Shown piece after piece: positions 5,236-61,701 of a DNA stretch of 64,000 bases; position 1 is the stretch's first letter; the number at the start of each line of letters is the position of its first letter. The position numbers and the translations under genes were made by a program. Source of the stretch: Cladocopium goreaui (taxonomy: Eukaryota; Sar; Dinophyceae; Suessiales; Symbiodiniaceae). The stretch lies in assembly GCA_947184155.2 (NCBI GenBank), contig CAMXCT020003367.1, positions 1 to 64,000 of the forward strand, given 5' to 3'. Under the pieces are notes generated by a model that did no database searches, had not been told where the DNA came from, and saw only the letters and a program-made list of their open reading frames with translations.

Positions 5236-5254
5236 GCACCAAAAGTGTAAAAAA

Positions 5255-16250: not shown

Positions 16251-16274
16251 TTATCTAAACTCAAGAGTGGTGCT
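16251..16274 (+). repeat. Left terminal inverted repeat of the giant element
   Basis: Twenty-four bases beginning TTATCTAAACTCAAG. They match the reverse complement of 61678-61701 at 23 of 24 positions, with G/A at position 17. Confidence 0.9.
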
Positions 16275-16291
16275 CTGGAAGCACCTTCAGA

Positions 16292-16450
16292 AGATGGTAC
16301 GTGGGGTACAGTATGCTAGTACGCTAGGGTGTACGGTATGGTGGTACGGGTGGTACGGTACGATGGTGCGATTGGTACTAGTTTATGGTACGAATGGTAC
16401 TAGATTCTGGTACGTATGACACAAAATGGTATAGTACAATGTAGTACGAT
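16292..16450. repeat. Left subterminal GGTAC-rich repeats
   Basis: Dense irregular copies of GGTACG/GGTACT/TGGTACG over about 150 bp, just inside the left TIR. Read inwards from the right TIR, the 61.4-61.65 kb array gives the same GGTACG core, so the two are mirror images. They may bind a transposase (inference). Confidence 0.75.
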
Positions 16451-16512
16451 TGCTACTATATTTATGTGATAAATCGGAAAAGTAAGATATGCAAATGACA
16501 AAATATTAATCT

Positions 16513-16614
16513 ATGACTGTGACTAAGCATTGGGTTGGTGCTTCATTGTGAAGGCTTAGTCCCCATTATTCACTATTCACATGACTGTGACTAAGCATTG
16601 GGTTGGTGCTTCAC
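16513..16614. repeat. Direct repeat pair of about 33 bp
   Basis: ATGACTGTGACTAAGCATTG and the 13 following bases occur at about 16513 and again at about 16581, separated by about 35 bp. This is inside the giant element near its left end. No gene is visible between here and 17.55 kb. Confidence 0.85.
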
Positions 16615-17556
16615 CCGGATGAATATTTTTTTTCTCTATCTCCTGCTCAGGGTTTGCTCTCTGCTCGAATTGATCAAGTGTTTCTGATCATTCTGTACGA
16701 AAGCCGGTTTGGAAAAGTTCGATTTCCATGATCCGGAAAGACAAGTGTTGAGTGTTTGTGTTATTAAATTTCCTAAACGGGACGAAGACGAAAGCAAAAA
16801 GCTATTGTTTCGCCTGAAACTCAACAATATCAGTATATATAAGTTATGATTTGATTTATGTTAAAGTCAGGGAAATTTTTCCTACAGCCAGCTCTGAACC
16901 TGTATGGTTCCTCTTGCACGTTCACCTCCCGAACGTTGCGACACATTTCGCAGGTCCAATTTCAAAATGAAATCTTGATTTCTTGATGATACAAGTTACA
17001 TAGAAATGTAAACTGAACAGTAATAGTAATAGTATATGTTGTGTGGTTGTTTCGGGGTTATTGTTTTAAGGCCAATAATGAAATGAACTAACATTCACAT
17101 TGAAACTGAAACCACACTGAGCTGGGACCTCGGGAGTGTCTAAGATGAAACCGATGAGACTTGTGGAATAGATGTAGATCGGTCGTATAGTACAGGTCAC
17201 TCAGTGCGACGGAGATTCTTGAACCTGAGATGAGCGTCACATACTTAAGTTACAGGGGATAAGTAAAGTATGGGGAAGCTAAAAACTATGAAAACAATAA
17301 ATTGAATTATTAAACCAATAGCCTGTCATATCAGAATCATAATATTGATATTGATATACAATTACAATATATTTCAATAATATTACAATCATGTCACATT
17401 CATAGCTCATAGTTCATAGTAGTATGATTCTATCATATCTTACAGCCTGCAACAATAACGTGAAGTAAGTGTAGTAGTAATGTTTTAGATTCTGATAAAA
17501 ATTAAATGAAGTAAGTTAGTACCGTACAACATAGCTCAATAAAAACACGACACATA

Positions 17557-20500
17557 TCATATCTTCATGTTATGTTTGGATGGTTTAGGGAAATTGATTA
17601 AGATGATGCAGCAGAAGAACGTCTGCAGCGCAGTTGCGTTTGCTGACTCCTCTTCCACTTCGGAATCTGTAATATGAGGTAATTCGATAAAGCAAGCCAA
17701 TAGGATGGCGAGCACGATGGTGCTGCTGAACCTAGGGCAATGACACACACACAGAGCTACGAAACCAAGGCGAAACCAAGAAGGAACACATGTAAAATCA
17801 GAATTCAATGAATCAAAACCATTGTATCATTCATTGTATCATTCATTGTATCATTCATTGTATCATTCACTGTATCATTCATTGTATCATTCATTGTATC
17901 ATTCATTTATCATTCATTTATCATAGCTACAAACAAACACCTTGAGTCTTGGGAAAGTGATGATTGTTGAACATTGAATCAAACCAACTTTGAAATTCGA
18001 AAGAACTATACTATCAATTCAATTATCATATTCAATTCAAATTCCAATTACGTTTGGAATATATGTCCTAAATCCCCAATCTCAAAGTGCTTTCAGAGTA
18101 CGAGTTCCCAGCTAAATCGCAAAGTTGTGGTTCTGTGAATTGATTCAGCACCGCATCCTCAAACTGAAGTCCTTGAAGGTGTAATAGCTCCCGTCCTGCG
18201 ATATATTTTGCAGTTCATTGATGATGTAGCATAGTATAGCCACATAGTCATAGTAATAGTAATAGGTACTAGTAGCCATCGGTATCAACCACATAATCTC
18301 ACGAATATATTGTTAGAATCAAATTAGAAACATATTTAACTTAAAAATGCAAAACAATACGCAGCCAAGTATAGTCTACTAGCATGCTATCATGTAATAA
18401 TAGAACAAAAATGCAACACTAATATTTATTATGATGTAGTAGCAGTAAATATGCTTATGGAAAAAACAAAGACATATTGTATTAAGTTTCGCTCAATATA
18501 AAATAGAGTATAGAGTATAGAATATAAAGTTTGTAGAGTATATAATATAGATAGCATATATAGAAAGTACAGAGAGTTATATAGAGTATATATATATATA
18601 GATTATAGATTATAGAATACAGAATTGAGTATATAGTATAGAGTATAGTATCATTGTACTATATATTTATTTAAATAAATCATATTCATATTTGCATATA
18701 AGATTCAAATCTAAGTTATCATAACTACAATATTAAGAATGTATAGTAACATATCAAATTAAAGCATTATTTTATTATAAGAGTATATAGAATTAGAATA
18801 TAATTTTGAATTTAAAATTAAAAACATATTTTATTAATATGATACAACACAAAATAATTACACACATGATAAACAGCATAACATGTATATAACTGTATAT
18901 AATCAATATGTTGTAGTTTTAGCTACCGTTTAACCGTCGCTATATAGTGTAGTTTAGTCTAGAGTCTAGAAGAAAAACACAATAAAGTGTTTATTTAGAC
19001 ATTATCGTATAGTCTTATGTTATAGCATAGAGTCTAGAGAAGTAACATTATATTGGGTATAATAGTTACTATACATTGCCGATGACTATGTTGAATGTTG
19101 TTTTTGTTTTTTAAACATCAAATAATGATTTAACAATCTAACTTATCAATTTGACTGTATTTTGTTCCATTATACATTGATGTCTTACTTATTTAGGGTA
19201 GAGTTGTAAGATTTGATGGAAATATTGAAATATCACACATTGATGTCTCATCAGTTTCATCGTTTAGTTTGGTCCTAAGACGAGTCGGCCATGCTCAATG
19301 TCCCAAAGTTTGGTGGATGGCAACGCTGTCGGAATTTCCTTAGTGTGCGAAAATTAAATGCACGATTGCAAACATCACATAACTCACATATATAATCTAT
19401 AGTCTAATATGTTAATGACATATTCATCTCATGTCTAGCAACTGTTTCTGGTGACGTCGGAGTGCGTGATGCGCTATGATAGAGATCACCAAAGCGAACA
19501 ATTGGATTCGTGCCACCAGCTGCTTGTTGAGAGTTCCTCTCCTTGATCAGGAATAATACCACCTCGTCAAGCTGTAGGGATAGGAATCATTTGTTGATTA
19601 GCTTTTACATGTTACCATAATTAGTTCAATTAATTGAATTATGATTTATATCTCCTATGTTCAGTTTGAAGTGGTAACAAATCTTTCGACTCTAGAATGA
19701 AACCCATTTAGAATGAAAGAGCCTCCTTCTCACGGTCTGGCAGTGTCTGAAACCATTCGTTTCGACCCAAGTCGTCTGTAACTTCAAGGGGCCAGCGAAT
19801 CGAACCTCAGTGACCACGCGCTGGAATATAATAAATCAACAAATAAAAAGTATCTGAAAAATATAACATTAAGTATATAGTATTGTTTCATATACATATA
19901 ATATATATATATATATATGTATTGTATTAAAGATATATTATTTATTAATTGTATTATATTTAATATTACATATTTATCAGCTAATCATAAATATAATAGT
20001 ATATGCTAGTATTACTATATATAGTGAGATCATATTGTCATATACTCCAATCTAATTGATCATTATTTCTATAGGAACTATATAAGATATGTTGCTATAG
20101 GGATGTGGGTAGGAGATGGTTTTGTATGAACATGAGATTGATTGATTTGGATAGTTTGATTTGTAAACTTACTATAATGAAATGAAAACAACAACTTAGA
20201 ATTAAAAAATCTAAAATTAGCAACTATATCATGGATCTAGAATCTAGATATATGCTGCTTAGCAACGGGATTCTGCTAGGGTCATATGCTGTTCTTTCCA
20301 CTTTGATGATTTCTCGAACTCTACATTGCCCATGTTTTCATCATTCTCAGTGTCCAATTGAACCTGGTTATCCTTGTCTTTGTCTTTCTGGTTGTCCTTC
20401 TCTTTCTTCTTGCGACCTTCGGTTCGATCAGCCTGTGCCTTTCGTGTTTGTCTGCGTTCCAATTCAGCAAGAACTGCATCATCAGTGGCATGAAGCAAAT

Positions 20501-23500
20501 AGTCACCCTCAGCGATTGAGTCTGATCTCTTGAACTGTTGTTACTTATTACTTATGTTGATTGCACACACACATATATGATCATATATGTTGAAATTTGA
20601 GATTCTTGCGATTCAGGGAAACCGAAAAAAACTATCAACTCTGAAAAGAAAAAATAAAGTACATAACATTTCAAAAAAAGAATCCGGGCTCTGACATTGC
20701 AATTTGAAGGCCTCTAGGTGTTTGGTCACTACGTCCATGTTGAAGTCGGGATAATGACGTTTCGAGACACCGAGGAAGAACAACCTGATGCGCCTCTGGG
20801 GAAGTCCAAAGTCACGAGTTAGTACTTTGTACACACGAAGCCAGAAACCACCTGCAAGTTCTTCAAGCTGTCGCACAATCAGATCGAGATTGTTGTCATC
20901 TGACGATGACTGCTTTGATTCTTCCATGTCAACATTTTCAAGGAGAAAGGTTCGACAATCCACTGACTCTATTGTCTCTTTCGTGCACTTGAATGTGACC
21001 ACTGAGCTTGCTTCCTTATCAGCGTTCAAAATTTGAACCTAAATATGTTAACATTGTAAAACCATATCAGAGTGTGAGGCGACTTACCTGCAATATGATG
21101 CAATCAGCATATATATATAATATAATACATACACCCACATTAGAAAAATAACATACTAAAACATATCGTATCTTTTACAAGTATCTTCGTCCTCGTTTGC
21201 CATCGCGTGTTGAAACTTCTGAAAATCTTTGTGAAGTTTGCTGTAGCTCTTGCATGAGAATCCGGCACCCAAAGCAAACAATTCTGACGGAAGCTCCTCA
21301 GTTGAGATCTGCAACACAAAACAACACATTAAATGATCGCTTGAAGCTCATACATCAAAAACACATTATCATACTTGTTGAATCACCAAGATATATATAA
21401 ATATATAGATATAATATATATATATATATAATATTATATATATATATGTTTCAAGTTTCAACTTGGTTTATCAAAAATCTACAAAAAAACTAATGAGAAA
21501 TGTCACACAACGCATATCTACAATCTACAATATGTTTAAGAATCATATCCAGTCCCATACCCCATCAGAATCTAATCAAGTCTCACAGGTGTCATTGTGA
21601 CGGATACATTTCCGTTCTCCAGTGAAGAGTTGTGTAGCTTCGGAAAACAAACGCGAGTTGTCCTGGTATGCCGGTAGGAGGAACTTCTGCTTGAACCCAA
21701 CATTCTCACACATGAAGTTGTGCACGACCTCAGGTTTGATTCATGCATATCAAACATGTAAAGTAAATATTAACATATTGACACATAAGATATGATTCTT
21801 CTTCTTTGCTTAAGTTTCCCAGGAGTATCTATTGATATCAAGTTGGTCACTAGTTGAATAGATATGTCCTAATGAAAATGTAATACTAAGATCAAACCAA
21901 ATAACCTCCAAGTCTTCACATTCCTCGGGATATGTATTTTGAATCGCATCAAATAGCGTCGCGAACACCTTGTTGAAGCAGCCTGTCCCTGTAAACAAAT
22001 CTGCCATGTTGATTTGTCTCGGTAGTGCACGAATGCGGTCACGCAGACCTGGAATCCTGTGTGCTGCTCGTTTCAAAAGCACCTTGGTGTTCGAAATCAC
22101 AAAGACATAAGTGAAGCTTGTTGAATGTGGTGTTACCATATATACTATATACATTAATCTCAGTCAAGATACATCTGTTGCTGACTGCAAGATGTCGTTG
22201 ATGTCAGGATGTGTTTTGTATGATGGTGGACATCGATACAGATCACCATATGGATAACAAGGTTCATCAGCATCGTCTTTGCCTTCAACTTGGTCTGTGT
22301 TCCCAAACATCGCATCAGTATCCATCTCCACTTCCATTGTGTTCACCGAATTATTATTGTTCTCGGTCGGCGTCAATGATTCCTACAGGTCAGAGTCATA
22401 GTTGTCCTACCAGTGAAAATGTTGTAAGTATAATTGTAACTCATTTTTTAATATATTATATTATATCATTCGGCTAGTTGTCCAATGGTTTGGATTCTAA
22501 ATATCAAAAGGTCAAATCATCTAAGTAATTATATAAATAGAATCTAAAGTCTAAAAAATCCAAAGCCTAAAGCTAATGTCTAAAGAACCGGAATATCTGT
22601 CTACGTCAAGTTGAATTTGCTTAGTAACTGATAATTAACTGCTAACCAGGTGAGTGATAAGTGATAACCATAGTCCTGGTCTTTGATCCATGTCTCGAAG
22701 AGCTTTGCATCAGCGGAAACCTCTTTCAACAAAGTGAAGCACATGTCACGATCTGGAAACTCAAAGCGATACTTGTCCAAAGCGTCGGGAAGGTCATGAA
22801 GATGGCATGGCATGGCATCTTTGATGTTGTTGATGAATCCAAGAGTTGGTCCACCGCTTGCCAGTTTGTCATGTTTGGCAAACTTCTGCACAAATCTAAT
22901 CCATTGAGAAACTTCCATCTCTGAATCAACATCTGGTGAATCGATTGTGAAATTCTCGTAGTACGTTGCCTCCATGGCATCCTTGTTGTCACCACTGGTC
23001 CAGAAGGCAACATAGTCTTTCCAGACTTCACTGGCCAGTGCTTCTTGAAGAATCGAAGCATAGGTCACTTGCTCTTGCTTGTCCTTGATCAACCACCTTT
23101 GGAAGTCAACAAGATCTTGGTGACATGTAGCTGGACTCAGAAATGGATCACGACCATGGGTGTCTTCCCAGAAGGCAGCAAACACCCGAAACCTCTCATG
23201 TTTTTGGGCGTCAAGAAACGGCCGCAATGTAAATGAATCAGCTGTTGAAGACTCCCCTGCCGATAAAGCACCTGCAACCATCTCTGAAAGATCATCACGA
23301 AGACTATCTTTCACTTTGACTGGTTCTTCTCCATGGTCTTGTTTTTGATCAACATCACACGGTGTGGGGTTGTTGTCCTTTTTCATATGCTCGATTGGGC
23401 TCTGTGACGTCGATTGGTTGTCCACAGTCGGATCAGCTGCAACATCAAGGGGATTGGTCACACTACTTGCGGCAGGTTCACCCAACGTAGCTCGTGAATC

Positions 23501-23997
23501 TTCTGCAGGTTGTGCTGGCTTGGTCTTCGTCTCCTGAGATTTTGTTGTGATAACAAACGATGAAGTAAGTCAGAAGTGAGAAAGAAACCTCGTATCATAT
23601 GTACTTAATGTAGAGTGTATATGTATGTATATACCATTACACATTACATTACTACTACTGCTACATATACATTTATCTAGAATCTGAAATCCAAAATCTA
23701 AATCTAAAATCTAAACATAAACTTAAACCAAGGCAAAGTTTCAGTCTCAGTAGTTGTCTCAGCTGTGTGTCCTTTGGAAACAGTGTCTGCGTTCTTGGTA
23801 TCCTTTGGTTTGGAAAAACCCAATGACGTCCACTGTTGTTGATACTGAGCAACCTGCTCTGGAGGTAGTTGTTCTATGGCATCATCTGCTAATTTCTTCC
23901 TCCTTTTGTTGCCTGTCGATTCTGCTGACTTTGCCGTAGCCTTTGCCTTCTGTTCTGGCTCGGCTATGGTTTCATCTTTCTTTTTTTGGGGTGCCAT
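17557..23997 (-). CDS. Cytosine-C5 DNA methyltransferase, multi-exon, cargo of the giant element
   Basis: About thirteen minus-strand exons give a complete C5-methyltransferase, which transfers methyl from SAM to cytosine. Exon 1 starts at an ATG at 23997 and is Lys-rich (MAPQKKKDET..., RRKK), a possible nuclear signal. Exon 2 (about 23.54-22.60 kb) is an unrecognised helical N-terminal region; exon 3 (22.39-22.17 kb) is acidic. The catalytic domain follows in canonical order: motif I DLFTGTGCF (about 22.0 kb); 21.73-21.59 kb; motif IV with the catalytic Cys in FSCKSYS (about 21.25 kb); motif VI LLENVDM and motif VIII FGLPQRRIRLFFLGV (21.04-20.69 kb); 20.53-20.27 kb Lys-rich; target-recognition exons near 19.75 and 19.57-19.44 kb; 19.34-19.275 kb; motif IX/X GRELLHLQGL and LAGNSYSEST (18.195-18.07 kb); final exon 17.73-17.56 kb. 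The Pro before the catalytic Cys is replaced (SC, not PC). Exons 19275/18195 join as a GA-AG intron. It probably methylates DNA in the nucleus; target is unknown. Confidence 0.87.
17818..17935. repeat. 12-bp TTGTATCATTCA tandem repeat
   Basis: About eight copies of ATTGTATCATTC with two shortened copies at the end. It lies in an intron of the methyltransferase gene. Confidence 0.93.
18210..19260. other. AT-rich intron of the methyltransferase gene
   Basis: Long AT-rich stretch between the exons ending at 19275 and starting at 18195, with ATAGAGTATA-type low-complexity runs at about 18500-18660. I see no exon in it. The corresponding protein junction (GRLVLG to RELLHLQG) is continuous without extra residues, so it is an intron. 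Confidence 0.75.
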
Positions 23998-24848: not shown

Positions 24849-26825
24849 TCAGTCGTCTGACTTGTCTGTGTTCTTTGTTTGAACACTGTACTGTGCTGCC
24901 TGTGCCTGCAATGCACCAGGAATGATTAGCGTGTGCTCTTTACAAGTGCTCAATGTCTCTGCTAACTCAGAAGTCAACTTCGATGGGATTGGTGAATTGG
25001 ATTCAACTGCCTTGGTAAATCGCTTCGCACTCAAGATTCGAACCAATACCATAGTCGCAATCACTGATAGGAGGTTGTTCATGACGGCCACAGCCTTCTC
25101 AAGGACATGCATTGAGAAATTAAAACATAGTTTGTTTAGGTTAGTTCATTAAGTTTGTAACTCGAAGAAACTAGAATGGAAGACTGGAAGGGTAATCAAA
25201 CTACAACAAATGGATCTTAGAGTTAGTTGTGAAATACAATGTCTAAGTAAATGCAACCAAACAAGACTTAGTAATTTAGAACCTAGACCATGTTGCGAGT
25301 TGGGAGTGTGAAAAATGGGAAATCGGAAATCATATGATATCTTTAAACAGTTCAGGCCTGGTCATACTTGGTTGTGTCAGATTCACAGTTCGCAATCTTG
25401 ATTTCATTCATCACCGCGCGCAACTTGTTGGCATATCCCGAGAGTTCCGGAACGCGATCACTGAAAGCTGTGAGTTGTGGAAAATCTCGATCAAGCTTTG
25501 GTAGGCTCTTGTCATCACTAGGTGCATAGCTCAAGGAGGAGGTATCTGGTAACTTCAGATCTGTTACACATTCAACAGCAGCATCCAATTCAACTGCCTC
25601 CCAGGGAACTTGTCAGTGCATTAAATTACATGTTCTAGTTCTAAGATTATAACATAGAAATAGTATATCAAATTATCAAACAAATATAAATCTAAACTAA
25701 ACCTAATCTAAAATATAACGAACTGGTTTTGATTAGATAAAGTCAAAACTATAACTTAAAACAATTATATAGTTAGAACATTTAGTTGCTATATGACTAG
25801 TCATTGACTCCACGGTCAGTTTAGCTTAGTTACAGAGTTTAGTTTGTAACCGGCCTTCTGGCTTGTCCATGTATGCAATGATTTGGAAGCATCCTCACTA
25901 AGCTTCGCGCACATCTGACCAAAGTGCTCCGCAGTCAAGGGCAGCTCCATGGTCTTGTTCTGAAGAGTTTTGAGAACTCCCACAGCCAACATGTCAATGT
26001 CCGTGTACTTGTTGAAGTCGTCAATGCATGCCTTCAACTTCTTGACTAAGTCTCCCTGAGCCACATCTTCTGCGAGTTGATGACTTTGTGTGACTTCCAC
26101 AAGTCCAAAAAGTGTATCTAGAAATCCACAAGATTTCAGCTGAACATTGCGTCGTTCTCCATCAGGTGGCAGTGCTGCTGCAAGAAGGGACAACCGTTCC
26201 GTGTACTTGGCAATCTCCTGAAAATCGAGCTTGCGCTCCTTGAGCGGTTCTTGCAACCTGCCCAAAGACTCCAGCAAGAATACCTTCGCAACATCACCGT
26301 CCTTCTCAGTCACACAGTCACGCAAAGTTCTCAGCTCAGCCATTAATCCCTTGATACAAGCGGAAAAGGCTCCAATCTCATCTTTGGTGACCGAGGGGAT
26401 CAAGATTTCCAGAAAGTCCTGCATGTAAATTCTAGACAAACGATGTCAATAATTTCAAGACATTCTATTCTAAACCATAGCCACACATTTGCAAGTTAGA
26501 TCATATAGTGTAAGGTTTAAAGTGTAATAGAGAGAATGTAACCATTAAATATAATTAAACCCTAATAGAAATAAAATATTATATTGTTGTATGTATAATA
26601 TATATATATTAATCTAAATATATATATATATATTAATCTAAATATATATATATTAATCTAAATATATATATATATATATATTAATCTAAATATATATATA
26701 TATATTAATATATATATATTAATATATATTGTATCATGTTCCAAGATATAGTTAGTTAGTTGGGTAGTCAGTTAGTTAGTTGGTTGGAATGCTGGTTAGT
26801 TAGCTAGTTAGATGGTGAGTTGGCG

Positions 26826-26878
<53 letters not shown>

Positions 26879-29800
26879 TTTAGTTACTAAATTAGTTAGT
26901 TAGTTTTCTTAATCTATCCTGAAGAGAAAACAAAACAGAAGTCTGAAGACATATATACTTGAAAAAAGGAAGAAACACATGTTTATGAAGTTCAGTCCTC
27001 AAAGTCGCAGATCGATTTGGCAAAGCCAGTGAGCAGGTTATGTAGCTTCTCCCCGTTTGCCACAATCACACCACTCTTCATGCCGATAGTCTCCTTCGAA
27101 ACTGCACATGCTTCACCAAGTAGATCTTGAAATGGCTTGCACTGATCAAGTCGTGTCAACTTTGCTACATCCTCATTGAGAGCGTCAGGTTCCTTGAAGC
27201 ATCGCTGGGTCTTCATGGATTCAATAGAGTTGTCCAGCCATGGAGTAACCTTCCAGCAAAATAATGTGATATCAGTACAGGAAATATAAAGGTGTAACAT
27301 TTTGCAAACAATTTCAATCAATATCAAAAATGAAATTTCTCAAAGTTGAATAATATATGATTAGCATTAAAAAAACACAGTTATTCATATTGTTAAACCA
27401 ACATCAACAATAAGTTTCATAAAATACGTGCCTCTGATTGGCAGATGTACCACACCACAATGGCCATAGATTTGCGCACAAGGGTTGCAAAGCCATCAAC
27501 AGCCTCCTTCCCAAGAACTTTCACCTGTTGCCGTGAAGATCGTAGCTTCTGCAAAGTATCAGCACCATTGAGAATGCATTGGCACCTGCAAAACGCAAAC
27601 TGATGTGACAACAATGTATAAAAAATCTTAAGCACAGACTACTCGTGCAGACTACTGACCTATTGTCAGCTCATATAGCCATGACTAATAAAACATTATA
27701 TTTAGAGCCTAAAACATTAATTAAACTAAAAGTTAACTTTAATAACATATGATCTAAAGTAAATAATAAAAAAAAACTAAATAAAAAAAACACACCAAAA
27801 CCTTTGTTAGAAACTAATAATAAACAATTGACAGGCAAAGACATAATTCAAAACTAAAAGTTAAATGAAGTCATGATACCATTTGCTCAAATCATCATCA
27901 CGTTTGAGCTGCCCTTTGCTGATGAGATCCTTGAGAGGATCAAATGCTTCTGCCACTGATTCATGTAGCTGCTCCTCTGATCCCCTTGACTCTAAAACCA
28001 CCTTCGCTTCAGCCACAATCCTTGGGCCAAACGTTGTGGCCATGACCACTGCGCACAGCTGTGATGAGGATCCCGTCTTGGAAGACCTGATTTCAAGGCT
28101 CAGGCCAAATATACTCTTATAATAATGAAAGAATTTTAACATATCACAACAAACTAATAAACCATATCAATATCATTTGAAAACAAACTATATACAAGCA
28201 ACAATAATGATACCTCATAACTTGCCAAGCAACTTTGAGACATGGCTCATATGTTCCACTGCAAACTTCAGTTTGGCAAGGGGAGCTGAATCTTTGCGAA
28301 TGAGATGCAAAATGATACCAGCTTCGTCGGCAAGGTTGCTGACTGGGCTGCCATAGATAGCATCAAGAAACTTGGTAAGCTTGTCAATGGCAGGCTGTTG
28401 CTCCTGAAGCTTCACAGGCTGCATTTTAAAAAGTAAATGTTGATAAGTTGAGAATGAAAACCAAATAGCATACAAACTCAAACTATTGTCCCTGAAGCTT
28501 TTTCCAATTTGCATTTTAAAACTAACCACCACTATATCCAATTGTTTTCTCTCCTTCTTCTGAGCAATGACCCACTTCACCAGCTTCTGCAAAGACTGTG
28601 CAATGGTAGTGGCAAAGAAGTCGTCAGCAGTCTCCTTGGGATTCTCCTGATCATTTTCGAACCGCTCCTTGATGGTCTCACGTGTTGCGCCCATAACGCG
28701 GTCAAACTCCAATAGCTTGATGTCTTCAAAAAGCATCATTTTCAATGCCCTCCTGATGATGCTGGCACTGAAGGTCATGTTGTACTTCACCGCAGCATCG
28801 TCCAAAAACATGAGCAGTGTAGTCTTGCTGTCAACGGTAGTTTGACCAAGTAGACCTTAGGCATAACACTGTATGGCTGGAACCAAGTGATACATTATGG
28901 CCAAAACCACAGTGAATTATATCATATAGTCATTTGATAATCATTAATGTAATATGTTTCTAATCTTGAAGTGAATTGTATAAATTAATATAGTTTGTGA
29001 CGAATAATTTGGAAACTTATATATACATTATACATATGTATGCACATGTATGATATAAACATTCATTGAAGCAAATTTGTTGGATCATATATATAAATTA
29101 TTTAATATATATATATATTATTTAGTGTTTTAAAAGAAATATTCATAGCATAGAAGTATGTATTGTGTTAAGGATTAGTCTATGTTGAAACTAATATTTA
29201 TAGTATAGTATAGATATATTGGCTTTCATCAAAAATCACATAGCATCAGGATATTGTACAAATGTAGATTAATTAATTATATATATTTAAATTAAAATAG
29301 TATTAGTATTATATTATATTTTATATATTTTATATTTCTTATATACACAAAATATATTTGTACATTGTACATACATCGATTTACAAATTAATAACCTTTG
29401 TGTTCATTCCAATTTGTGCTTGTATTGAACTCTATTTCTTTGAAACTTGACTTGTGAGACTATAGGTTTCTTCATATAGTTTCTCTATTGGTTCAATGTT
29501 TGAATGGTGGATGATGGTGAATGAAACAGTTACAACGTCCACAATGAACCAGCTCTCAAAACTCTGAACGCCATATGTTTCAAGTCCCAGTGACACTTGA
29601 TAACTACTTGCATGTTCTTCACCAGCTCTTCGATCTTCCCTAGCTCTTCATTGATCGGTGGAATCTCTTCACTGTTGCAAACACGTCTGTTGAGAGACTT
29701 CATCTTCAATTTGAGATCTGCTTTGAAGGCAGTGAGTTCAGACTGATGTTCTCCAAGTTTGGAACGAAATTCCTTGTCAGCCATCGGCGCACTGACATCA

Positions 29801-29940: not shown

Positions 29941-30069
29941 CTCAATAGCTAGCTTGATGTGGGATATATTTTGTTTCGCTATAGTTTTTTTTTGAAATCT
30001 TCAACATTGTATGCATAACTCCAGAAACTTATAATACGAAAACAATAATTAAAGTAACTAAAGCAAAGG

Positions 30070-49870: not shown

Positions 49871-50344
49871 AGTGAAAGCCGAAACTATGATATGATTCAA
49901 AAGTAATGATATAGATCCAGCCGGACTGTGTTTTGTTTTACATTCATATAGTAGAATAGACTGACAAACGTTATGTATGTATATATTAATATTATACATG
50001 TATTTGTATTATAAAGATTTGACTTAATTACTATGAAGTACTGTGTAAAGCCTTATACATACACATGGGCTTGAGCCTGAACACAACTGCAACAGTCAAT
50101 GTTTCAGATATATACAAATATTGTGTTTATATACATGTATATAAAACTTGATGATCATTGTGAAATGTCAGAAACTATTGAATATAATTATTCTGTTCCA
50201 ACATCAGAAATATCATTTTGTTTTAACTGGATGATACTTTGTTTTATTTTATATAATGTTCCTGAACTTGATACCCGGGTAACCTAATATATATATATGT
50301 ATATATATTCCATCAATATTACACACACATGTTCCATGAATGCA

Positions 50345-53300
50345 GACAAGAAACCTTGTATGGAATAACTGTCCAAACACATCCAGCACCAAATGCACCG
50401 TGGATGTTGTTGGAAATGTCTCTGGCCAATTCAGTCTGGGTGTAAATCACTGGAGAGCGCATTTCACCCTGATGATGAATACAAGTCGAAGCTACCCATA
50501 GTCCATCACCCGTGTGGTTTGGTTCCAACTTCCACTAATCACCTTCATAAGGATTGTATTTCGTACGACATAGAATCCAGGCAAGAACTCTAGGATGATC
50601 TGATTGCCTGATGTTTTTGCGAAACAAAATCACAATATATATATTATATATTGTACGATGATATTAGGTCATAGAGTCATAGAGCCACTAGGTGGTTATG
50701 ATATGATATGATTAGCGTATCATTGTAAAAAAATGTTTGCAGCTAATAAGAATACAACCAAATCTGCATCTGAATATAAATAGAATCTAAACTAACCTTA
50801 AGACCACCACAAAACAATAGGTGTTGTAAAATTCAATGAGTAAATAAGTGCTGAAGTACTCATCCGATTTCTTCAAGACCAAGAGAGGGTGCTGGATACT
50901 TGTTTGTGGCCCCTTGTTTCTACCATTCTTCAAGTGAAGTCTGCGGTGATTGGAAACATGTTGTTTCAGTTGAGTCAAAATATGATTGTATGTAGCCATG
51001 CATTGTATCTCCTTCATGCAAAAACCGTCCTTCTGCCCACAGCTCAAACGAACTGTAGTAGAAGCGAACTGACCAGGGTCAGGAATGATACCGGAAGCTC
51101 TTTCTCTCCACTTCGATGCCCATTTTCTCACAAATCCATCCTCCATGTCCGCTTGGTGAACAGCATGTTCGCTCAATGCCCAGTTTCCATCCCCAAGCCC
51201 AAACGAACCAAAATGATCTCCTTGATCAGTGTTTGCTTCCAATACACTTTTGGGAATAGCCACTAACTGCTTGAAGCGACCCTGAGTTGACACATCATCG
51301 TCATGGTGAAGCACGATGGCTTGACTGTTTTCCTCATCGTCATCATCATCCGAATCATATACATGCTGAACCAACATCGATAATGGATGAGATGTAGGAT
51401 TGAAGTTCGAGGTCTTTGGTGTGCTAACACTAACCTTTTCATCCAGATTTGCCAGTTGCATCCTCTGTTTGCGTTTCTCCTTGGCTTCCAACTTGTGTTG
51501 TCTTGCTGCATTACCCCAAAACGCTTTGAGTGCAGGATTGTTTTTCCATTGTTCTTTACACCAATTCAAAGTACGCCTCCTGCATGAATCGTATGATTCC
51601 CCAGGTTGCAGTGTTCTTTCGTTGAAAGCATGTGCACAAAAGAGAGTGTACCCGTTGTAGACTTTCGATTCTCCTACAGGGTTAGAAATTTGAAAGAGTA
51701 AACTCTGTGAAACAAAACAAAACCATATTCAGAGAAAACATATACATAATGACATATGAAAGTAATAATAATAATTGATTTGTTCGGGAATTCGAATGTT
51801 GTTGAATGATACTTATTGTATGATAGTGCGCAACACATTTACAAACTCCATATTCAAATTCAAAACATAGCGGCACAATACAAATGATCCTTTGATGTTG
51901 TCATCAATGGTCGATGTGATAGTCATGGGGTCGACATGCTCCCTGATATGGTCAAGCTGATCCACGTATGCCTTCTTGATTTCCGCAATCAAATGTTTTG
52001 AACATAGGGTGTGACTAAGATCACTTCTTCCTCGCCCAGACCTTTGCATGCTTTTGATTCGTGCGAAACAATTTTCAACAGCAACGTTGAATGGTAGCCC
52101 CTGGTATGCAGCTTTCAATAGCAAATGATGTGTTCGACCAGGCAATAGTTCTTCAAAACCCAAAGTACGTTCACGAAGTGGACCACTAAACGCTTTGTCC
52201 AGGCAGCATTCATCCAATGCCATGAACTCTTTTGCAATCACCTACAGGGAATGTGGTAAAGCTGAACTGGTATCTGATTAAATGGTATTTATAATTACTG
52301 TTCACAATTACGGTACACATTTTGAATCAAAACATACTAATTATATCTATTGTACAATAACAACTATTATATTTTGTTGAAAGTTTGTTGTTTCTTGGGT
52401 GGTAATGCCTCCTTGGAATCACGGGATTCTTCATTGGCCACAAGTCTGCTGAGACTCCAAGGAAGTAGTGAATATGGTTTCACAAGACGATGCCACGTTT
52501 GACCAACCAAAGACACGATGGCCCAAAATGTGTGATCCCTGAACGAATCAGGGATTTCGCCAAGAAGTCCTGATCAAGACTCAAGACAAAAGCACTGATC
52601 AAAGTAGAGTATGTATGTGTTTGTTTTGTTGATATGACATAGTGAAATAAGTTTAACAATGTTAAACTTTTACATTGGCAAACGTCTTTAAACTTTGCTT
52701 AAGACTTAAATGATGTTTACTATGTGACAGCCATGCTACGATGGTGATGCAACAGAATTCAAAATGAAAATGCAGTTCATTATAAGAATATTACAATTCT
52801 AATATGAATTCAAACTGCAAACAAACTATAGATTCGATTTGAAGTTCTTGTAACTAAAACCCACAAGAAATAGTTTGCTTTTCTTGTACTTTTTAATCAA
52901 CGCTATCAGTTTCGAAAATACTGAAATTGAAATTGAATTGATTAAACTAAACACCTGCACTGATACGGAAGTCCTGCCACAATCTCCTGCAGGGTGACAT
53001 CATCTTCTTCAGATACATCACGTAGTCTTCCAGTTTCCATTAGAAGAAGAAGATCATCCACAGCACGACAGGCAGGGGACATGTGTGTGGACATGCATGC
53101 AAGTGGAGACGTCATATCCTCACTTAAGAATGATAAGTCCGATTGCCATTGAAGAAACCGGAACATCAATTTCTCAAGAGGAGATACAGTAGCAACCGTA
53201 ATAAGCAGCATCAAGACCGTATCGTTCTTGGATAGCCATGCGAAAGCCTTCCAAGCCCGTACCCCCATTGCACGTCGGTGTAATTCAGCACTTGCCCCCG

Positions 53301-55639
53301 GAAGAACAGAGGATGAAAAGAACTCAACTGCTGACATACTAACGTTCATCTCCTCAAATTCAGACTTCATCTGTGATAGCTTGGTCTGCGAATGCATCAT
53401 CTCAAACCCCTTGGCCAGTAGATTGTGATAGGCCAGCGCACACCTCACAGCTTTGTGGGATGAAACAATTGTTGTAAAACATAAGTAATACATTCTGGTA
53501 ACTTTGTTTAGTTTTGGGCTATAAATATAGCAAATAGATAAATAAAATAGTAGAATTAGAGTACACATTTGGCTCAACATCTACCACACAAACTGTATAA
53601 CAACATCACACCCATACCCAAACAAGGCACAGAAAAAAACAAGGCACAGAAAATACCTGGTAGACTGTCCGCATGTTGTCCAGCGGCTGATGGCTGGCGT
53701 CGACGGTTTTGATCCAAAGATGAAAGCCTAAGTAGCTGTCCCTTGTTGGTTCTTCTAGCTAAAGGATAATAAACAAAAAAATGCAACAATGAGATTGTAT
53801 ATGGAATATATTGATTACAATTAATTGTATAATAACTTGAGGTTCAACATGTGAACATGTTATAGTAAATAGTGTGTATATATATATGTATATTAATATA
53901 CATACAGTACAAGGAGAATAGATGAATCTGATGATTGCATAGGTCAATATGATTTCAATTAAATATTACCTGTATCTAGAACCTATGTTGCTGAGGCTTT
54001 GGGTAATTCAAACCGAAAGCAAATCAATGAATCAAGTAACATAAACAAATTCTCAACTCCTAACATGTAATCACAAACAAAGAAACCAGGATTGCTGTCC
54101 ACAGTTTTTTCCTTGTTTCGTTCTTTCCTCCGGGACAACAAAATACACCTCCGCAATGATGATGTATACATCCACTGTGCCAATTCCCAGTATCTAAAAT
54201 GAGCAGTTCCTGTGAGTGCTTCCAACGATCTGGAATGTCTTGTCCTTGTCCCTTCAAACATTTGCCAAGCACCAGTTTGACCAGAGCCTTGTTCCGGCGG
54301 ATATCATCTGGATTCGGCCTGTCAGCAACAAATGTCTATGAGCTGGAACTGAGAAAATGTGGATTTTAAGTGAACAAAGATTTGGTTTTGAATGGAAATT
54401 TATACGAGTATGTAGTGATGTAGGCTCAAACACAAAACCAACCAATGAAATCATATAAGCGTTATCATTTCTATTTTTTAGGAGTTTGTTGGTTGTGTCA
54501 TGGTGTATGCTTCATACGGGATATCATAAGATTCATACGGAATATCATAAGATTCAAAAATGATAAGATTATAATAATGATATCATATATATATATTATA
54601 CTGTTTAAAACTTTGAAACAATACAATATTACTATGTATGTATCATATTTCTATACAACATGATATTGTAGTTTAATGTGGTTAATATGTTGTATTCTGA
54701 TTCAAAACTACTTGGCTACTCTGTTCAGTAATTATCATTTTGAAACTTACAACTTCAAACTTATTTGAAGTTGCATTGTTCTGATATGATCAGCTATGAC
54801 AGGACAACCAAGACAACACTATGGTTAGTTAATCAAATTGGTTTATAACTTTTGCTCATACAGAAGCAAAGTGTTAGTAAATTGCCCGAGCCTGTCAAAG
54901 CTGATTCGTACCGCAGATGGATCAGTAAGAATCCAGCGTTCCAAGTGTCTCAGCATGTGAAGCAAGTTTGTACCAGATGAGATAAAGCCCACGCAGTAAA
55001 ACCTCACAATGCAATGCGAGGCAACAACACAGAATGATCATAAATATGATTTTCAAAAACAAACCACATTTGGATGCAGTCTGGTGTCTAGAGTTTACAG
55101 TCTAGAGTCTAGTGAGGCTTTTAAAGCATAGAGATATGGATATGTCACTGAATCATATCACAAAGGTTAGAGTTCATATGTAAAACATTTATTATAATAG
55201 AGAAAACACAATAATGCAAAATTTATTGTGATGAAACCAAACAAACTTATACTTATTATTATTGTTAGTTGCTAGTGGCTACTCTCCCCATTCCAATTTT
55301 GCGGCGAGAAGCATTGGTGTCAGCTGACCAAATGCTCGATACAACGGCTCTGAAGCGTGATTCAAATCGTGCCTTTGCTAGCGGAGAAAAAACAACGATA
55401 AACATCTGGAATCTGGAAAAAAACAAATACATAAAGTGTGAAGAAATACACATTGCAAGACAACAGCATCATTGGTTTTGTTCAGTTTAGTTACTGAAGA
55501 TTACAGTGAAACTTAAATAAAATAATTGATCTCCATTCTCAAACATGGCAGTGTCAGTGTTAGTGAGTCCAACTCCAAGTTTCATGGCTATTGCAAATGC
55601 ATCTCATTTTACACTGCAGGCTATTGAAATAAACATACA

Positions 55640-55678
<39 letters not shown>

Positions 55679-58600
55679 AAGTAGTAGTAGTAGAAGTAGT
55701 AGTAGTAGTAGAAGTAGTAGTAGTAGTAGTAATTAGTAATAGTAGTAGTAGTAATTAATAATAGTAGTAGTAATAGGAGTAGTAGTAGTAATTAGTAATA
55801 GTAGTAGTAGTAATTAATAATAGTAGTAGTAATAGTAGTAGTAGTAGTAGTAGTAGTAGTAGGAAGTAGTAATTGTAATTGAAATATATCATTATTCCAT
55901 CCATGAATTATTGGTAAGTCACTCATATTTCATTTATCCAAAGTCAAAATTTCAATACAAGCCACTGTGCGCAAAGTCTTTGCAGTACCAAACAGTTGGA
56001 TGGTCGTTCTGGTAAGATCCCTGCAGTCAGCAACTTGATGTTCTCACTTGCTGCGTCGCATACAAGTCGTAAGACAAACGTCTTGCATGCGTCTGCCCAT
56101 CCTGAAGTCAATCATCACAGTAAACTGTGCATTGTTAACTGCACACTGTAAACTGTAAACTATTGTTTGTTATATTGTACTGATATTGTGTGATTGCATG
56201 TCCCTGATATTCAAACGATGTAAGTATATAATGTCAAGTTATATACAAATTGTATAAATTTAAAAAAATGCTGACGTTTTCAAGAATCTTCGAACTCAAA
56301 CTATGTCCGTTAACTGTTTCCATCAATGCATGTAAATAGTTTAAAGTTACACAATCTTGCACAACTGAAAATCATTTGTGTTGCTTCTGACAAGCCACTC
56401 CAAAGATGAATTGGGTGTTTTTCCTTCATGGCCTTGTAGATACATTCAGCAGTTTCAGATTCCACGACTGCCGGTGCAATGGGCAGTGCAGACTGCCTTG
56501 GCTATTGGTAGGCTGTTGGCCTTTGTTTTTAACATATATAAAAAAACAAAAATATCCAAAACAAAACATTTCAACAAATAATGTCACAATGGAAACTGTA
56601 CACTATAGAGCCCCCAAACTTTGAAATCCAAAATCAAACATTTGAATTGGGTTCCGAAACTCATAGGAACATTCAAGATTTAAGCTAGCACCTAGTGTAA
56701 AACTGATATGCATAGCCCCTGAGAATTTCTGACCTGACAAGAATTGTTGATACTAGTTTGTTCAACCACAACCCAGCTCTACCACAAGCTCTGCAGCCTC
56801 ATGGCTAAAAGAACCCAATTGTCTAGTTAGTTAGGTTTAGGTTTAATTTGATCTATTTAGTCAAGCAAATGTTTTTTTTTGCTTGGTAGAGAGAGAAACT
56901 TAGCATCACCAAGGTACACAAGATACTTCGAAGATTCGTGCGGTTGGCAGAACACATGTCCACGTTGTACCTTGCATGAAGTGAGTGAACCAAAATGTGA
57001 AGGCTTTACCGATCTGATCTATTTAACCGGTTTATATTTGGTTAATCGAATTGTTCAACCTGTTAAACTCAATAACCTAACAACACATTATGTAGATGGC
57101 ACTAGATGATATAGGTTACCTGTTTTTGTTTGTGTTACATATGGTTGTTAACATTGGCAGAAGTAATGATAAGAACTACTACATTATACGTATTAATAAA
57201 AAACTATTAATACATTATAAATGGTGTTTAATTGGATTGATTTTATCGGTTGAGTGTTTTTTGAGCAGCTCTAAGTTTATCATCAAATGACCCAACCTCC
57301 TGATTCCAGATGATATTCAACTTATGTCATGTTGGCAAGGGGTTGTTATAAGGTACTTGAAGATATAATGAATCACGTAAACTAATCATTAGGCCTTAAA
57401 AGTTAGTCTTAAAGACATAGCAAATCACAAATTCAAAATGTAAACATCAAACTAATAAAATCAAGATAATACTTGCAGACTCCATGACATATGACATACC
57501 CATATGACTATTATGACTATATGTGAGATGATTGTATGATGCAATTGATTTATCAATTTATCCTATGAGTTATCCTATGAGTTATCCTATGAGTCATCTT
57601 GCGAATCATTACATGATTCGATTATTTATCATATGATTCTACTACAATGTATAAATCATTTAGTATAGTAGCTTCAGAATAGTAGAGATATTCATCCCTT
57701 CTTACTTGTAGTTGTTACCTTCATTCATGTGTTGTATTTGAACAAAACTGTAAAACCAATATGAAGACAAATTGAACAATTCAATCTATGCCAAGTAACA
57801 AGCATGTGGTACATGCTGTCAACCTCAAGCAATCCAGATCGCACACGTGTTTTGATGGAAGACGCATCGAATTCCAGCGATAGAGCGAGCACCGTTGGTT
57901 TCGCCTGTCGATATGTTGTAGTATTTTGAAATTTCAATCTATGTCCAACAAGATCAACTAGAATCAGAAAAGAATTTAAGTTCAAGATTCTTGGGTTGTT
58001 GAAATTCAGACTACACCTGAAACCAAATGATGCATTCAACATTCAACTTACAGATTGTGATTCTCATTTGTCTGAAGAATGAAATTGCATATCATGATTC
58101 CATGATCATTCTCATCAAATTTCAAGTATTGATGTCTTGATCACAGCATGTCACACAAATAATCCAAAAACAAAAATACTGAAAAAACTGCAAAATTAAT
58201 TTAACTGCAGACTCAGTAGACATATATCACGAGCCTCGAACAGAGTCTGAAGAGCTTGTTTGAGATGATGCACCCACAACTCTGATACAGCACTGCGGAC
58301 CTTGGTCATTGTGAATTTAGGAACCCAAGGCATGAGTTTGTTGAAATTCAAAAGGGAACACAACATTGGCTAAGCACAAATACAACTACAGTGAAGACAA
58401 GGAAACAACAACAAACTAACAACAACAGCAACAAACTGACAACAATTACAACAACAAACACATCAACGACAGCAACCACAACAGCAACAACAAACTGACA
58501 ACAATGACAACAACAAACGCATCAACAACAGCAACCACAACAGCAACAATACTATACATATCAAGAACACCAACCACACCAACAACTACAGCAACCAACT

Positions 58601-59692
58601 AACTGGTAGTAATAGCAAACAATAACAATTAACAATAACCACCACAATCACAACCATTACAACAACAATCGCAACTCACAACAACAACAACAGCAATAGC
58701 AACAACCACAACCACAACCACCACCACCACCACCACAACAACCACAACAACAAGAACACTTACTAACAGCAGCAACGGCAATAGATGCAGCAGCAATTTG
58801 AACAGCAACACCAACATTGACTAGCAACTACAAACAACAGCAAGAACACTTAATAAACTAACTATAAAATTCAACTCCAAGCATGATCAAACCCAAACTC
58901 ATTTGCATAAAAAAAATAAAACTGCTAAACGGCTTAACTCAACCAGGCCACAAGTGATATATGTGATGTCGATGCAGAAATCCAAAACGCCAGCGCGTTG
59001 GTACTGAACATACTTGGAATTTTGGATTGCAGTTTGCCCAATTGTTTCTCATCACGAAGACCATATGCCAGACCAAATCTCAGTTGCATGCAACTCCATT
59101 CAAAAATGTCTAAGGTAGATAATCCAGGTAACAAAGTATTATCTAAGTATTAGTAACATCCTTGTACAGTAATTTATATTTATAGTATGTTAGTATAGGA
59201 GTGGAAATTGTACTATGATATATGAATGTAAATATAAAAATATAAATTTGGATATAATATATATATATATTTCAAGTTATATTATATTTACGCATATTTT
59301 TAGGTTATATCACAATTGCACACACATACATACTGTTACATCAACATTTACATTGAGTGATGTTATATGCACAGGTGACCTAATGTGATCAAATGAATAC
59401 CAATATAAATATAAATTAAGTAGTGCATGTTTACTTGTTTTTGTATATAAAATTACAGTACATCAGAATCAAACAATGACTAAACTTTGACTAAACGAAA
59501 ACCAAAAAAACTTTTGTTATGTCAAATGTGAAGTAACGTTGTTCTGAAGTAACGTTGTTCTGAGTAGACTTGATGCAGTCCATGTTTTGTACTTCCCCTT
59601 GCCTTTGATAAGCTTCGAACTACCAGCAGCTTCGAACTTGCGGACAGCGTGATGTCGTTTGTATCTGTCCAACATCTTCCTGTGGCGCACAA
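50345..59692 (-). CDS. Candidate DDE (RNase H-fold) transposase of the giant element, multi-exon
   Basis: A chain of about eighteen minus-strand exons between AT-rich introns. Key exons: 59692-59540 (VRHRKMLDRYKRHH...KYKTWTASSLLRTT, a basic DNA-binding-like start); 59109-58945; about 58.31-58.24; 57904-57785 with LSLEFDASS (candidate first Asp); 57016-56888 (HVFCQPHESSKYL); 56501-56372; 56101-55967 with LRLVCDAASENIKLL (candidate second Asp, typical D-x-A-x-x-N); 55.40-55.29; 55.01-54.89; 54.31-54.08 (Cys/His-rich: HHHCGGVFCC); 53760-53658; 53.47-52.95; 52.57-52.38; 52241-51830 with LPFNVAVENCFARI (candidate Glu); 51.67-50.80; 50.53-50.35. The two Asp strands and the late Glu helix in this order fit a DDE/RNase H-fold transposase with a large insertion. 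The last two exons could be a separate gene. Superfamily unassigned. Confidence 0.62.
55641..55868. repeat. AGT/GTA trinucleotide microsatellite
   Basis: Over 200 bp of (AGT)n with AGA and AATTAGTAAT interruptions, intronic in the transposase gene. Confidence 0.97.
58385..58850. repeat. CAA/CCA-rich low-complexity tract
   Basis: Degenerate ACAACAACA/CAACCACAA sequence, including a pure CCA run at about 58717-58733. Intronic in the transposase gene; open frames here are artefacts. Confidence 0.9.
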
Positions 59693-59699
59693 CTAAAAA

Positions 59700-61415
59700 T
59701 TCAACTCAACCATTAATACAATATATTATGTTAGTTATAGTTATCACATTCATGACTCATGATTCAAGATTCAACATTCAGCATCAAGACATGCCAATGC
59801 AAATCAAACACATATGTAATTCCTGTGCAATAACGATTACTCAAGTTAACTAAATTAAGCTAAATGAACAAGCATGAGTCAAACATAAATAAGAAAACTA
59901 AAGCTACACTGCCACTGCTCCCAACTCAATATCAATGGTAATGAAAATGAATCAGAATTTCACACAGTTCTTGATAAGAAAATCCAGTTATCATTCAATC
60001 AGCAACTCGCACAACTGACAGAGTCGTCCTGAAACTGTTTGCATCAGTTTGTATAGATCGTCGCAGTCTTGTTAATTCTGGACCTTCAGCATTGAGGTGA
60101 CTCTGGTTTGGATAGGGTTTTCATCTGGAAAAAAAAATAGCTAATCGAAGGTTTCTTCGTTTGCCTAGTTCAGTTCAGACTATGGATACACTTGATGTTA
60201 TACTACATGGTTTTTATATGATAAATATTTACATTTTACAATTTTACAAGACAATACATGTTCATTATTCATTATACATTAATGACTGTGACCTTGCAGT
60301 AAGTATAGTCTGGGAAAATCAAATTTGGTTTTGTTATGTTTTGTTTTATTTTATTTCGTGACTAATTTAGTTAGTTTAGGTTCGAAAAAAAAAACAACGA
60401 CGTTTTGTTTCCCATATCATTTTGGTTTTAGTTTCAGTTGTTTTGGTTGAGTTTTAGTCATTGTTTTTTAAGTTTCTTCCCTATATCTCATCCAAAAATT
60501 GCCACCGGGATACATTTGCGAACATATTTCAAATTCGTGGCTGTACGGGTTGAATTCTGACGCCGAAGTTGTCGATGAACAGCCATTGCATACAGCGGCG
60601 TGGGACTTGCAAAAGTCTCTGAAATTGAGTAAGCCAGATGTCTGGTTGCATACGATTTCAATTTCAGTATATACTATGTTACTATGATGTTGAAAAGAAA
60701 TCATACCTCAGTCATCATATTGTCAGATTTAATTTGATTTATGTGTCCTTATGTTGAGTCTCAATGTTGTACAGTTGTACATGTGATTTGGTATGACTGC
60801 ATGAAGTATGAAATGTATTGTTGTTATATGATGTTCTATGATATAGATTCTACTTAATTTAATATCCATGTCTTGTGTGTCTATGTCTGGTCTCTGTCCA
60901 TGTGTCTATTGCTGATATCCAACACACTGACCGATCTGGGCTTGTTTTGTGTTGCTGACTTTGTACATTGACATTTGTGCTGGCTGAATCCCATGACATA
61001 CAATATATGCTCCCCATATTCCATTATGAAATGAACAAACAAATTTGAATAAAATAACATTAACAAATTCTCATGAACATTACCGACTATTACCGAATCG
61101 ACAAACAATTAACTAAATACTACTAAATTTTGATGTATAATAAATGATGTATAAATGTGTAGTGCATATTTGTTGATCCATCTTACCCCCTCCTTCCTCC
61201 GTAAGGGAAAGTTTAAAAAAAAACTAAAACACATCAATGGGTGATGAAGAATTCATGATGAATATGCGTTCCGTCCTGCCCCCCCTCCAGCAGAGGAAAA
61301 CCACCGGTTGACTCTTGACTCTTGACAATCAGATTCAACCGTTCACTGATCATCTATCAAGCATGTCACACTTCATGAACTTCATGTCTATTCATTTAGC
61401 CACATGTTCCTTTCA
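59700..61415. other. Presumed 5' region of the transposase gene; uncertain exons
   Basis: On the minus strand an open stretch at about 60.08-59.99 kb reads ELTRLRRSIQTDANSFRTTL and could be an upstream exon. Another at about 60.63-60.47 kb reads DFCKSHAAVCNGCSSTTSA, while the plus strand is open there too (DAEVVDEQPLHTAAWDLQKS). Neither is decisive. The rest is AT-rich without visible genes. Confidence 0.35.
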
Positions 61416-61424
61416 TAGTGTACT

Positions 61425-61650
61425 ATGTGCCAACGACACGTACATTCATACCGTACCACGTGCCAACCACACGTACCTTCATACCGTACCACGTGCCAAC
61501 CACACGTACCTTCAAACCGTACCACGTGCCAACCACACGTACCTTCATACCGTACCACGTGCCAACCACACGTACCTTCATGCCGTACCCATGTACCAAG
61601 ACACTCGTACCTACGTACCAAGTGGTAGTACCCTATCACCGTACCCATCC
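61425..61650. repeat. Right subterminal 33-bp GTACC array
   Basis: About four and a half copies of a 33-bp unit, ACCACGTGCCAACCACACGT followed by ACCTTCATACCGT, then degenerate GTACC-rich sequence up to the right TIR. Read inwards it gives GGTACG/GGTACGTG, mirroring the left end. Each unit holds CACGTG, an E-box-like palindrome. Confidence 0.92.
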
Positions 61651-61677
61651 CGTAAGCTACTTCCAGAAACCATACTT

Positions 61678-61701
61678 AGCACCATTCTTGAGTTTAGATA
61701 A
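61678..61701 (-). repeat. Right terminal inverted repeat of the giant element
   Basis: Ends CTTGAGTTTAGATAA. The reverse complement matches 16251-16274 at 23 of 24 bases. Confidence 0.9.

Follow-up and report, generated by a model that had tools for sequence, protein, structure and literature searches.

A giant inverted-repeat transposon family with a candidate transposase and a Dnmt5-like methyltransferase in a dinoflagellate genome

Introduction

The hAT transposons have short terminal inverted repeats (TIRs) and a transposase whose motifs follow the order D, DxAxxN, CxxHxLN, a long insertion, and E. An 8-bp target duplication is usual among them, 8-bp duplications are also reported for Zisupton of the KDZ (Kyakuja, Dileera, Zisupton) group, and some fungal DNA transposons carry a TET/JBP DNA-modification gene beside the transposase (PMC12730594). 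In dinoflagellates, two kinds of mobile element that encode a cytosine methyltransferase have been described, SymbioDIRS-Dnmt3 and SymbioLINE-Dnmt of Symbiodinium (PMC5890265). Here we describe a locus that shares features with each of these systems, namely, a block at positions 16251-61701 of contig CAMXCT020003367.1 of Cladocopium goreaui, within the 64,000-nucleotide stretch analyzed here (the window). In this block, TIRs and an 8-bp target duplication enclose a candidate DDE-type transposase gene (gene A), two further conserved genes (genes B and C), and a gene for a C5-cytosine DNA methyltransferase (gene D). We read the block as belonging to a new giant transposon lineage and, with a probability of about 85%, as one copy of a multicopy giant DNA transposon family in a dinoflagellate nuclear genome.

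Termini, empty sites, and the size of the mobile unit

The window TIRs, 24 bp each, lie at 16251-16274 (plus strand) and 61678-61701 (minus strand); they begin TTATC, agree at 23 of 24 positions, and are supported both by direct reading and by comparison of ends across copies. Outside them stand two exact copies of an 8-bp target duplication, ATCTCAAA, at 16243-16250 and 61702-61709, so that the termini and duplication reported by an earlier, sequence-only reading of this DNA are present as described. When the window was scanned for exact 8-bp repeats at least 200 bp apart that enclose 24-nucleotide inverted termini with agreeing first four bases, these ends were the best pair, with 1 mismatch. 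There were 43 pairs with at most 6 mismatches, and of the 8 listed, all 7 besides this one fall in TA repeats. Among 20 Markov-shuffled windows, none gave a pair with fewer than 7 mismatches; for most, the lowest number was 9, or no pair with up to 9 was present.

The source assembly (GCA_947184155.2) comprises 1.166 Gb in 6,202 contigs. It has 150 scored matches to the peridinin-chlorophyll protein family PF02429, against none for 14 control genomes; the host is, on this evidence, a peridinin dinoflagellate. In the same genome, a query with the right flank of the window matched three other contigs at 97%, the match on one of these being split into two pieces of 97 and 92%, and 351 bases of each counterpart (L058, L059, and L060) were aligned to the two window flanks joined. 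All three counterparts are continuous across the junction and lack the element, and since they run uninterrupted, both window flanks belong to one locus. Each empty site has the target once, as an exact ATCTCAAA in L059 and L060 and with 7 of 8 letters (one missing) in L058; an empty site of just this kind had been predicted. Differences from the joined flanks amount to 1 substitution and 2 gaps in 360 columns for L059, 3 substitutions and 3 gaps in 361 columns for L058, and 17 substitutions and 3 gaps in 309 columns for L060. The window block arose by insertion, with duplication of 8 bp at the target. The counterparts may be paralogs or alleles, and in either case the window insertion is young relative to L059 and L058.

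The block had been described as a single AT-rich unit of 45,451 bp. Its outer bounds hold, but its unity does not: 13,838 bp of it, at 31441-45278 on the minus strand, is a nested DIRS-type retrotransposon, recognized by its split repeats, absent from the second complete copy described below, and lying outside the transposon proper. Because the nested retrotransposon occupies this interval, the mobile unit is 31.6 kb and not 45 kb. Once it is subtracted, the transposon proper measures 31,613 bp and is indeed AT-rich, whereas the nested block has a high GC content (53-59% for every kb of 32-45 kb). Near-identical repeats (97-100%) run through the nested block in the order A, coding, B, A, B, with the A repeats at 45191-45278 and 31605-31692 (97%) and the B repeats at 31678-31822 and 31441-31590, a plan that has been described for Symbiodinium DIRS elements (PMC5890265). 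One open reading frame of the nested block has a DnaJ domain, and a stretch resembling a tyrosine recombinase is visible there, by eye only. We propose that this retrotransposon would have arrived later, inside the window copy, between the exons of genes B and C.

The sequence-only reading also had the insertion splitting one MFS gene whose halves are otherwise in order. A left-flank exon at 15180-15911 does match MFS_1; four short exon candidates on the two flanks gave no Pfam match. The insertion point seems to be intronic. Farther out, the left host flank (window 1-5600) is dense in tandem repeats, with units of 52, 41, about 177, and 277 bp.

Large and short copies of one family

One window exon (50790-51728), used as a protein query, gave 17 matches on 13 contigs, including that of the window. 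A second complete copy, divergent from that of the window, lies on contig C846 at 645881-672809 (26,929 bp). Its TIRs are alike at 21 of 24 positions, it has its own exact 8-bp duplication, ATATATAA, and its exons are collinear with those of the window from end to end. Over 3,203 codons aligned between the two copies, amino acid identity is 0.54 in gene A, 0.42 in genes B and C, and 0.44 in gene D. Second codon positions differ least and third positions most (in gene A, 0.42, 0.28, and 0.62 at positions 1, 2, and 3), and four-fold sites differ at 0.65-0.70; the conservation of second positions while silent sites have turned over indicates that the proteins were kept by selection. The aligned blocks were picked as open frames, and their stop-free state is not independent evidence.

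The order of genes is likewise conserved. The exons of genes A to D that are conserved all lie on the minus strand, in agreement with the co-oriented, intron-bearing genes noted earlier, and gene A is followed by genes B and C in 7 of 7 loci with at least 19 kb compared (the window, C846, and five others). Among the five others, gene B comes after gene A in every case, partly by its last exons alone, and gene C also matches in four; the sequence of the fifth, C5796, is too short, ending before gene C. For 11 of the 13 contigs that carry gene A, gene D lies downstream of it and shares its strand. A genome search for gene D, in which 86 of 243 candidates were scored, so that its counts are lower bounds, gave at least 95 matches elsewhere, some of which may be host or retrotransposon methyltransferases.

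Two short copies, each about 490 bp long, lie on C5815 and C5854 and combine the right end of the family with its left end. Their alignment spans 496 columns at 97.4% identity and stops within 3 bp of the termini, and the flanks farther out fail to align. The C5815 copy is flanked by CTGTATAT and CTGTAAAT, alike at 7 of 8 positions, while the C5854 copy sits inside a TA repeat where a duplication is not readable. Further copies with a different 8-bp duplication, which the earlier reading had proposed looking for, do exist, exactly duplicated in C846 and at 7 of 8 positions in the C5815 short copy. Behind the TIR, the right ends of the window, C846, C458, C5796, and the short copies have an AAG[T/C]ATGGTT-like stretch, offset by one or two bases in C458 and C5796, that is absent from left ends. 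At the center of the short copies is AAAAAACACAACCAATT, equal to the central sequence of the window. Retention of this array center by the short copies speaks for a role in movement, but the two are probably of one origin, so this retention counts as one event. Besides the window copy, the family has at least one further large copy in which both ends are present, together with two short copies that have these ends too.

These copies bear on two other explanations. First, the window could be an assembly chimera, or a segmental duplication mimicking an insertion, and our evidence does come from an assembly; however, three empty sites, the exact duplication peculiar to C846, and the recurrence of the same ends on short copies argue against this explanation, which we consider extremely unlikely. 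Second, the gene-bearing elements could be old, static clusters, with the short copies alone moving. The two complete copies differ at about half their residues, and two is also the number of large copies for which both ends are seen. Nonetheless, the near-identity of L059 to the joined window flanks implies that a large copy moved recently, and two loci with gene A are 99.4% identical, though they may be duplicated contigs; in our view the static-cluster explanation is very improbable.

The two loci just mentioned, on C3223 and C1362 (L022 and L023), are 99.4% identical over 2,364 bp and then diverge. They look like very young copies or duplicated contigs; a 2.5-kb stretch of each, about 10 kb upstream, had no gene A exon, and these stretches did not match each other. 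On C5996 the score of gene D equals that of C3223 and C1362. Other loci resemble the family in part. At L045, roughly 60 bp resemble the right end, and no gene match there is credible. On C4543 and C4335 (L047 and L048), which are identical over 3,177 bp, a TIR-like end, TTATCTAAACTTAAGAGTAATGAA, adjoins an array of GTAC repeats; these represent either a separate family whose ends are related or a duplicated contig. Finally, C1667:19000-25000 (L011) has GTAC arrays in both orientations and a TAG-type repeat resembling window 55640-55877, and is possibly a further related element.

A candidate transposase

Gene A (50352-59681, minus strand) is modeled at about 1,090 amino acids, with introns placed alike in both complete copies, and is a candidate DDE-type transposase by its motifs; a spliced product of a sister copy is described below. 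In seven loci the motifs read EFD, [S/C]DxAxxN, CxxHxLNH, and [V/C]E[N/T]xFAR; the motif with E is present in all seven copies, and EFD, the second D, and CxxH are present in each of the six loci that cover them. In the most complete models, about 70 residues separate D from D, about 30 lead on to C, and about 440-475 separate the second D from E. A variant CxxQ, seen in a pieced alignment of C458 and C772, was rejected as an exon-edge artifact, as the next exon of each starts with H. Based on this motif order, we infer that gene A encodes an RNase H-fold DDE transposase of a hAT-like type.

Is gene A expressed? A first search of the protein database gave no relative among the roughly 8,000 candidates scored, and a query built from a five-copy alignment gave one protein, P0012, again among about 8,000 scored. 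Residues 146-651 of P0012 equal the spliced gene A of C772 at 505 of 506 positions, across 11 exons and 10 introns; residues 1-145 fall outside the C772 stretch compared. The ten introns start with GT (5), GC (4), or GA (1), and all end in AG before a G. Given this agreement over ten introns, transcription and splicing are very probable for one gene A of the family.

These data also raise the question of whether we are looking at an ordinary transposon of the hAT superfamily, very large and divergent, that acquired a host methyltransferase gene. The 8-bp duplication, the short TIRs, and the hAT-like order and spacing of motifs would all fit. Against this, five members of gene A had no Pfam family at E values up to 10, P0012 had none at E values up to 1, and a gene A profile had no PDB chain at E values up to 5, although such HMMER searches can miss very divergent members. 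Moreover, termini in TTATC are unlike the usual hAT ends, and gene A is longer than hAT transposases both between its second D and its E and in its C-terminal extension. We regard a hAT origin as a serious contender, somewhat short of an even chance.

Viral genomes can encode cytosine methyltransferases, and the size of the element would also suit an endogenized virus or virus-like element, whether polinton-like or derived from a giant virus. Integrated double-stranded DNA viruses are, in addition, widespread in protists (PMC10120064, PMC12721341). However, no capsid or polymerase domain of Pfam was matched by the models of genes A to D or by the single exons scanned, the genes are rich in introns, and short copies share the ends of large ones. 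A search of viral contigs for relatives of gene A with two short patterns gave 20 stretches, none of which was confirmed. We consider a viral origin very improbable, and we return to the reading of the block as a copy of a DNA transposon family.

Inverted GTAC arrays at the ends and the center

GTAC is concentrated at three places in the element, at the right end, at the left end, and in the middle, the last at 49.8% of the 31.6-kb element and at 50.3% of the C846 copy. The window copy and the C846 copy are collinear relatives, and so the coincidence with the midpoint does not count as two independent facts. Reading from the right end, the subterminal array (61400-61619, in 33-bp units) has GGTAC inward; the internal arrays (45736-46170) are inverted around a palindromic core, GTACC and then GGTAC; and the left subterminal array (16295-16440) has GTACC toward the terminus. 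Between the last gene B exon and the first gene C exon found, GTAC density is raised in 6 of 6 loci with both, at 8.7-20.7 per kb in five loci versus 3.0-4.5 over their whole stretches, and at 38 GTAC in 1,605 bp in the window; for C5796, the interval used is the one before the last gene B exon. The center folds as a hairpin in five chosen sequences (the window, C846, C458, C772, and one short copy) under RNA parameters; this folding took in neither C1580, C5796, nor C687, and the C687 array is of a different unit.

One simpler account of the internal array, that it is a nested short copy, was rejected: other copies have this structure too, again between the corresponding exons. Allowing up to 9 mismatches, no TIR-like stretch was found beside the array in C846, nor can one be seen in the stretch of the window inspected. 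The arrays also differ in CpG content. Observed/expected ratios are 1.31 and 1.15 at the ends and 0.06 internally in the window; in C846 the end arrays have 0.66 and 1.29, versus 0.10 for the middle one. As a general code for methylation of ends versus center, CpG content was rejected as well; the internal arrays of C772 and C5796 are, by eye, full of CG.

The methyltransferase gene and genes B and C

Gene D (17647-23997, minus strand) comprises many short exons conserved in C846, and its stitched model matches PF00145 (E value, 2.9e-9), as expected of a C5-cytosine DNA methyltransferase. The closest solved chain is 7r76 (E value, 8.8e-10), which is labelled Rad8 and which we take to be Cryptococcus Dnmt5; next comes HhaI, at an E value of 0.46. 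Eleven matches were found in the protein database, including proteins named as Cladocopium goreaui (39% identity) and as Durusdinium trenchii (31%), along with a third whose name contains symbB (35%), presumably of Breviolum minutum. No SNF2 domain was found in the gene D model. DNMT5c enzymes without the SNF2 part have been described (PMC9998398), and by its domain content gene D may belong to the DNMT5c class.

Genes B and C lie on either side of the internal array. Gene B (46791-49942, minus strand) consists of an acidic N-terminal exon and the following exons up to the array, and it is conserved with C846. Gene C (24852-31348, minus strand) is a helix-rich protein of many exons, conserved with C846 exon by exon, and may be one gene with B. 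The models of both genes had no Pfam match over the cutoff; weak matches below it include a spectrin-like repeat at an E value of 0.008. A database protein of 408 amino acids, P0002, joins a stretch like the first exon of gene C to the second half of gene D and looks as if the intervening exons had been skipped, a hint that one transcript can span C and D.

A model for movement

In total, the TIRs, the 8-bp duplication, and the DDE-like motifs lead us to infer cut-and-paste movement. In the mechanism that we propose, the gene A product would bind the TIRs and the GTAC arrays and pair both ends, and it would then excise the element and insert it with an 8-bp stagger. The central inverted array with its palindromic core may serve as a third binding platform, folding the 27-32-kb element into two equal loops and thereby bringing the ends together. 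Gene D might methylate the DNA of the element at CpG. Would this mimic the host genome, or would it tune the binding or the expression of the transposase? Self-methylation has been proposed for the retrotransposon enzymes (PMC5890265). Genes B and C could supply accessory factors.

We further propose, tentatively and at a little under even odds, that the family represents a new giant DDE superfamily native to dinoflagellates, with a transposase that lacks recognizable outside relatives, a palindromic GTAC pairing platform at the midpoint, and its own Dnmt5-type methyltransferase. If this were true, transposon genes would be among the exon-rich DNMT genes reported from these algae.

Several observations weigh against parts of this picture. 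Both ends are seen for two large copies only; C458 and C5796 show one end each, and the remaining loci show none. In C5796 the internal arrays come one intron early, before the last gene B exon. Gene D is not uniformly in place: its match on C359 is weak (32% identity, with three internal stops), C5796 and C3942 (2 of the 13 contigs with gene A) gave no gene D match, and the gene D of C846 has a possible frameshift or unmodeled intron near motif VIII. P0012 could in principle be a processed DNA copy, and an AlphaFold2 prediction of P0012 with four window exons had a mean predicted local distance difference test score of 41.9, an unusable structure. Finally, the internal platform and the role of methylation are proposed from position and homology alone.

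Comparison with known systems

Among the papers listed in searches of the open PMC library, which excludes Repbase and most subscription journals, no title or opening of an abstract describes such an element, and the terms "dinoflagellate" and "Zisupton" are absent from the searchable part of a review of giant transposons (PMC6431247). Within this scope, the earlier statement that no described family matches still stands. We describe the element as a giant TIR transposon, with a fair chance of founding a new superfamily.

How does it differ from its nearest counterparts? In contrast to hAT transposons, no Pfam hAT transposase or dimerization domain and no PDB match were found here, and the terminal bases differ; the copies are 27-32 kb long, with intron-rich, multigene content, a methyltransferase, and a central palindromic array. 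Pfam contains a model of the KDZ transposase, and gene A has no Pfam match; in addition, gene D would add a methyl group, whereas TET/JBP oxidizes it. The En/Spm and Ac elements of maize likewise have short subterminal repeat arrays, which are read by the transposase or a helper, but the element described here has an extra inverted array with a palindromic core at its middle.

Larger elements offer other parallels. Starships are giant eukaryotic elements with several genes, but they are fungal and are classified by a tyrosine recombinase (PMC12134995); here there are TIRs and an 8-bp duplication, and the models of genes A to D have no tyrosine recombinase domain of Pfam, the only stretch resembling one, noted by eye, being in the nested retrotransposon. 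Teratorn, also a giant composite eukaryotic DNA transposon, contains a piggyBac-like transposon (PMC10175614), and no piggyBac domain was found here. As for polintons, no capsid or DNA polymerase domain of Pfam was found in the A to D models, though such searches could overlook divergent ones.

Dinoflagellate genomes are large and rich in repeats, and a 30-kb, gene-bearing family would be both a new source of that DNA and a new route for the movement of intron-rich genes. The GC-AG and GA-AG introns found in a mobile element, by way of the spliced product of one copy, suggest that the element is adapted to the splicing of its host. The Symbiodinium elements with which we began are retrotransposons whose enzymes are intronless and of the Dnmt3 family or orphan (PMC5890265); here, an exon-rich gene for a Dnmt5-like enzyme lies in a TIR DNA transposon. 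The retrotransposons known to carry a cytosine methyltransferase in these algae (PMC5890265) would be joined by a DNA transposon, and self-methylation thereby becomes testable in a second, independent setting.

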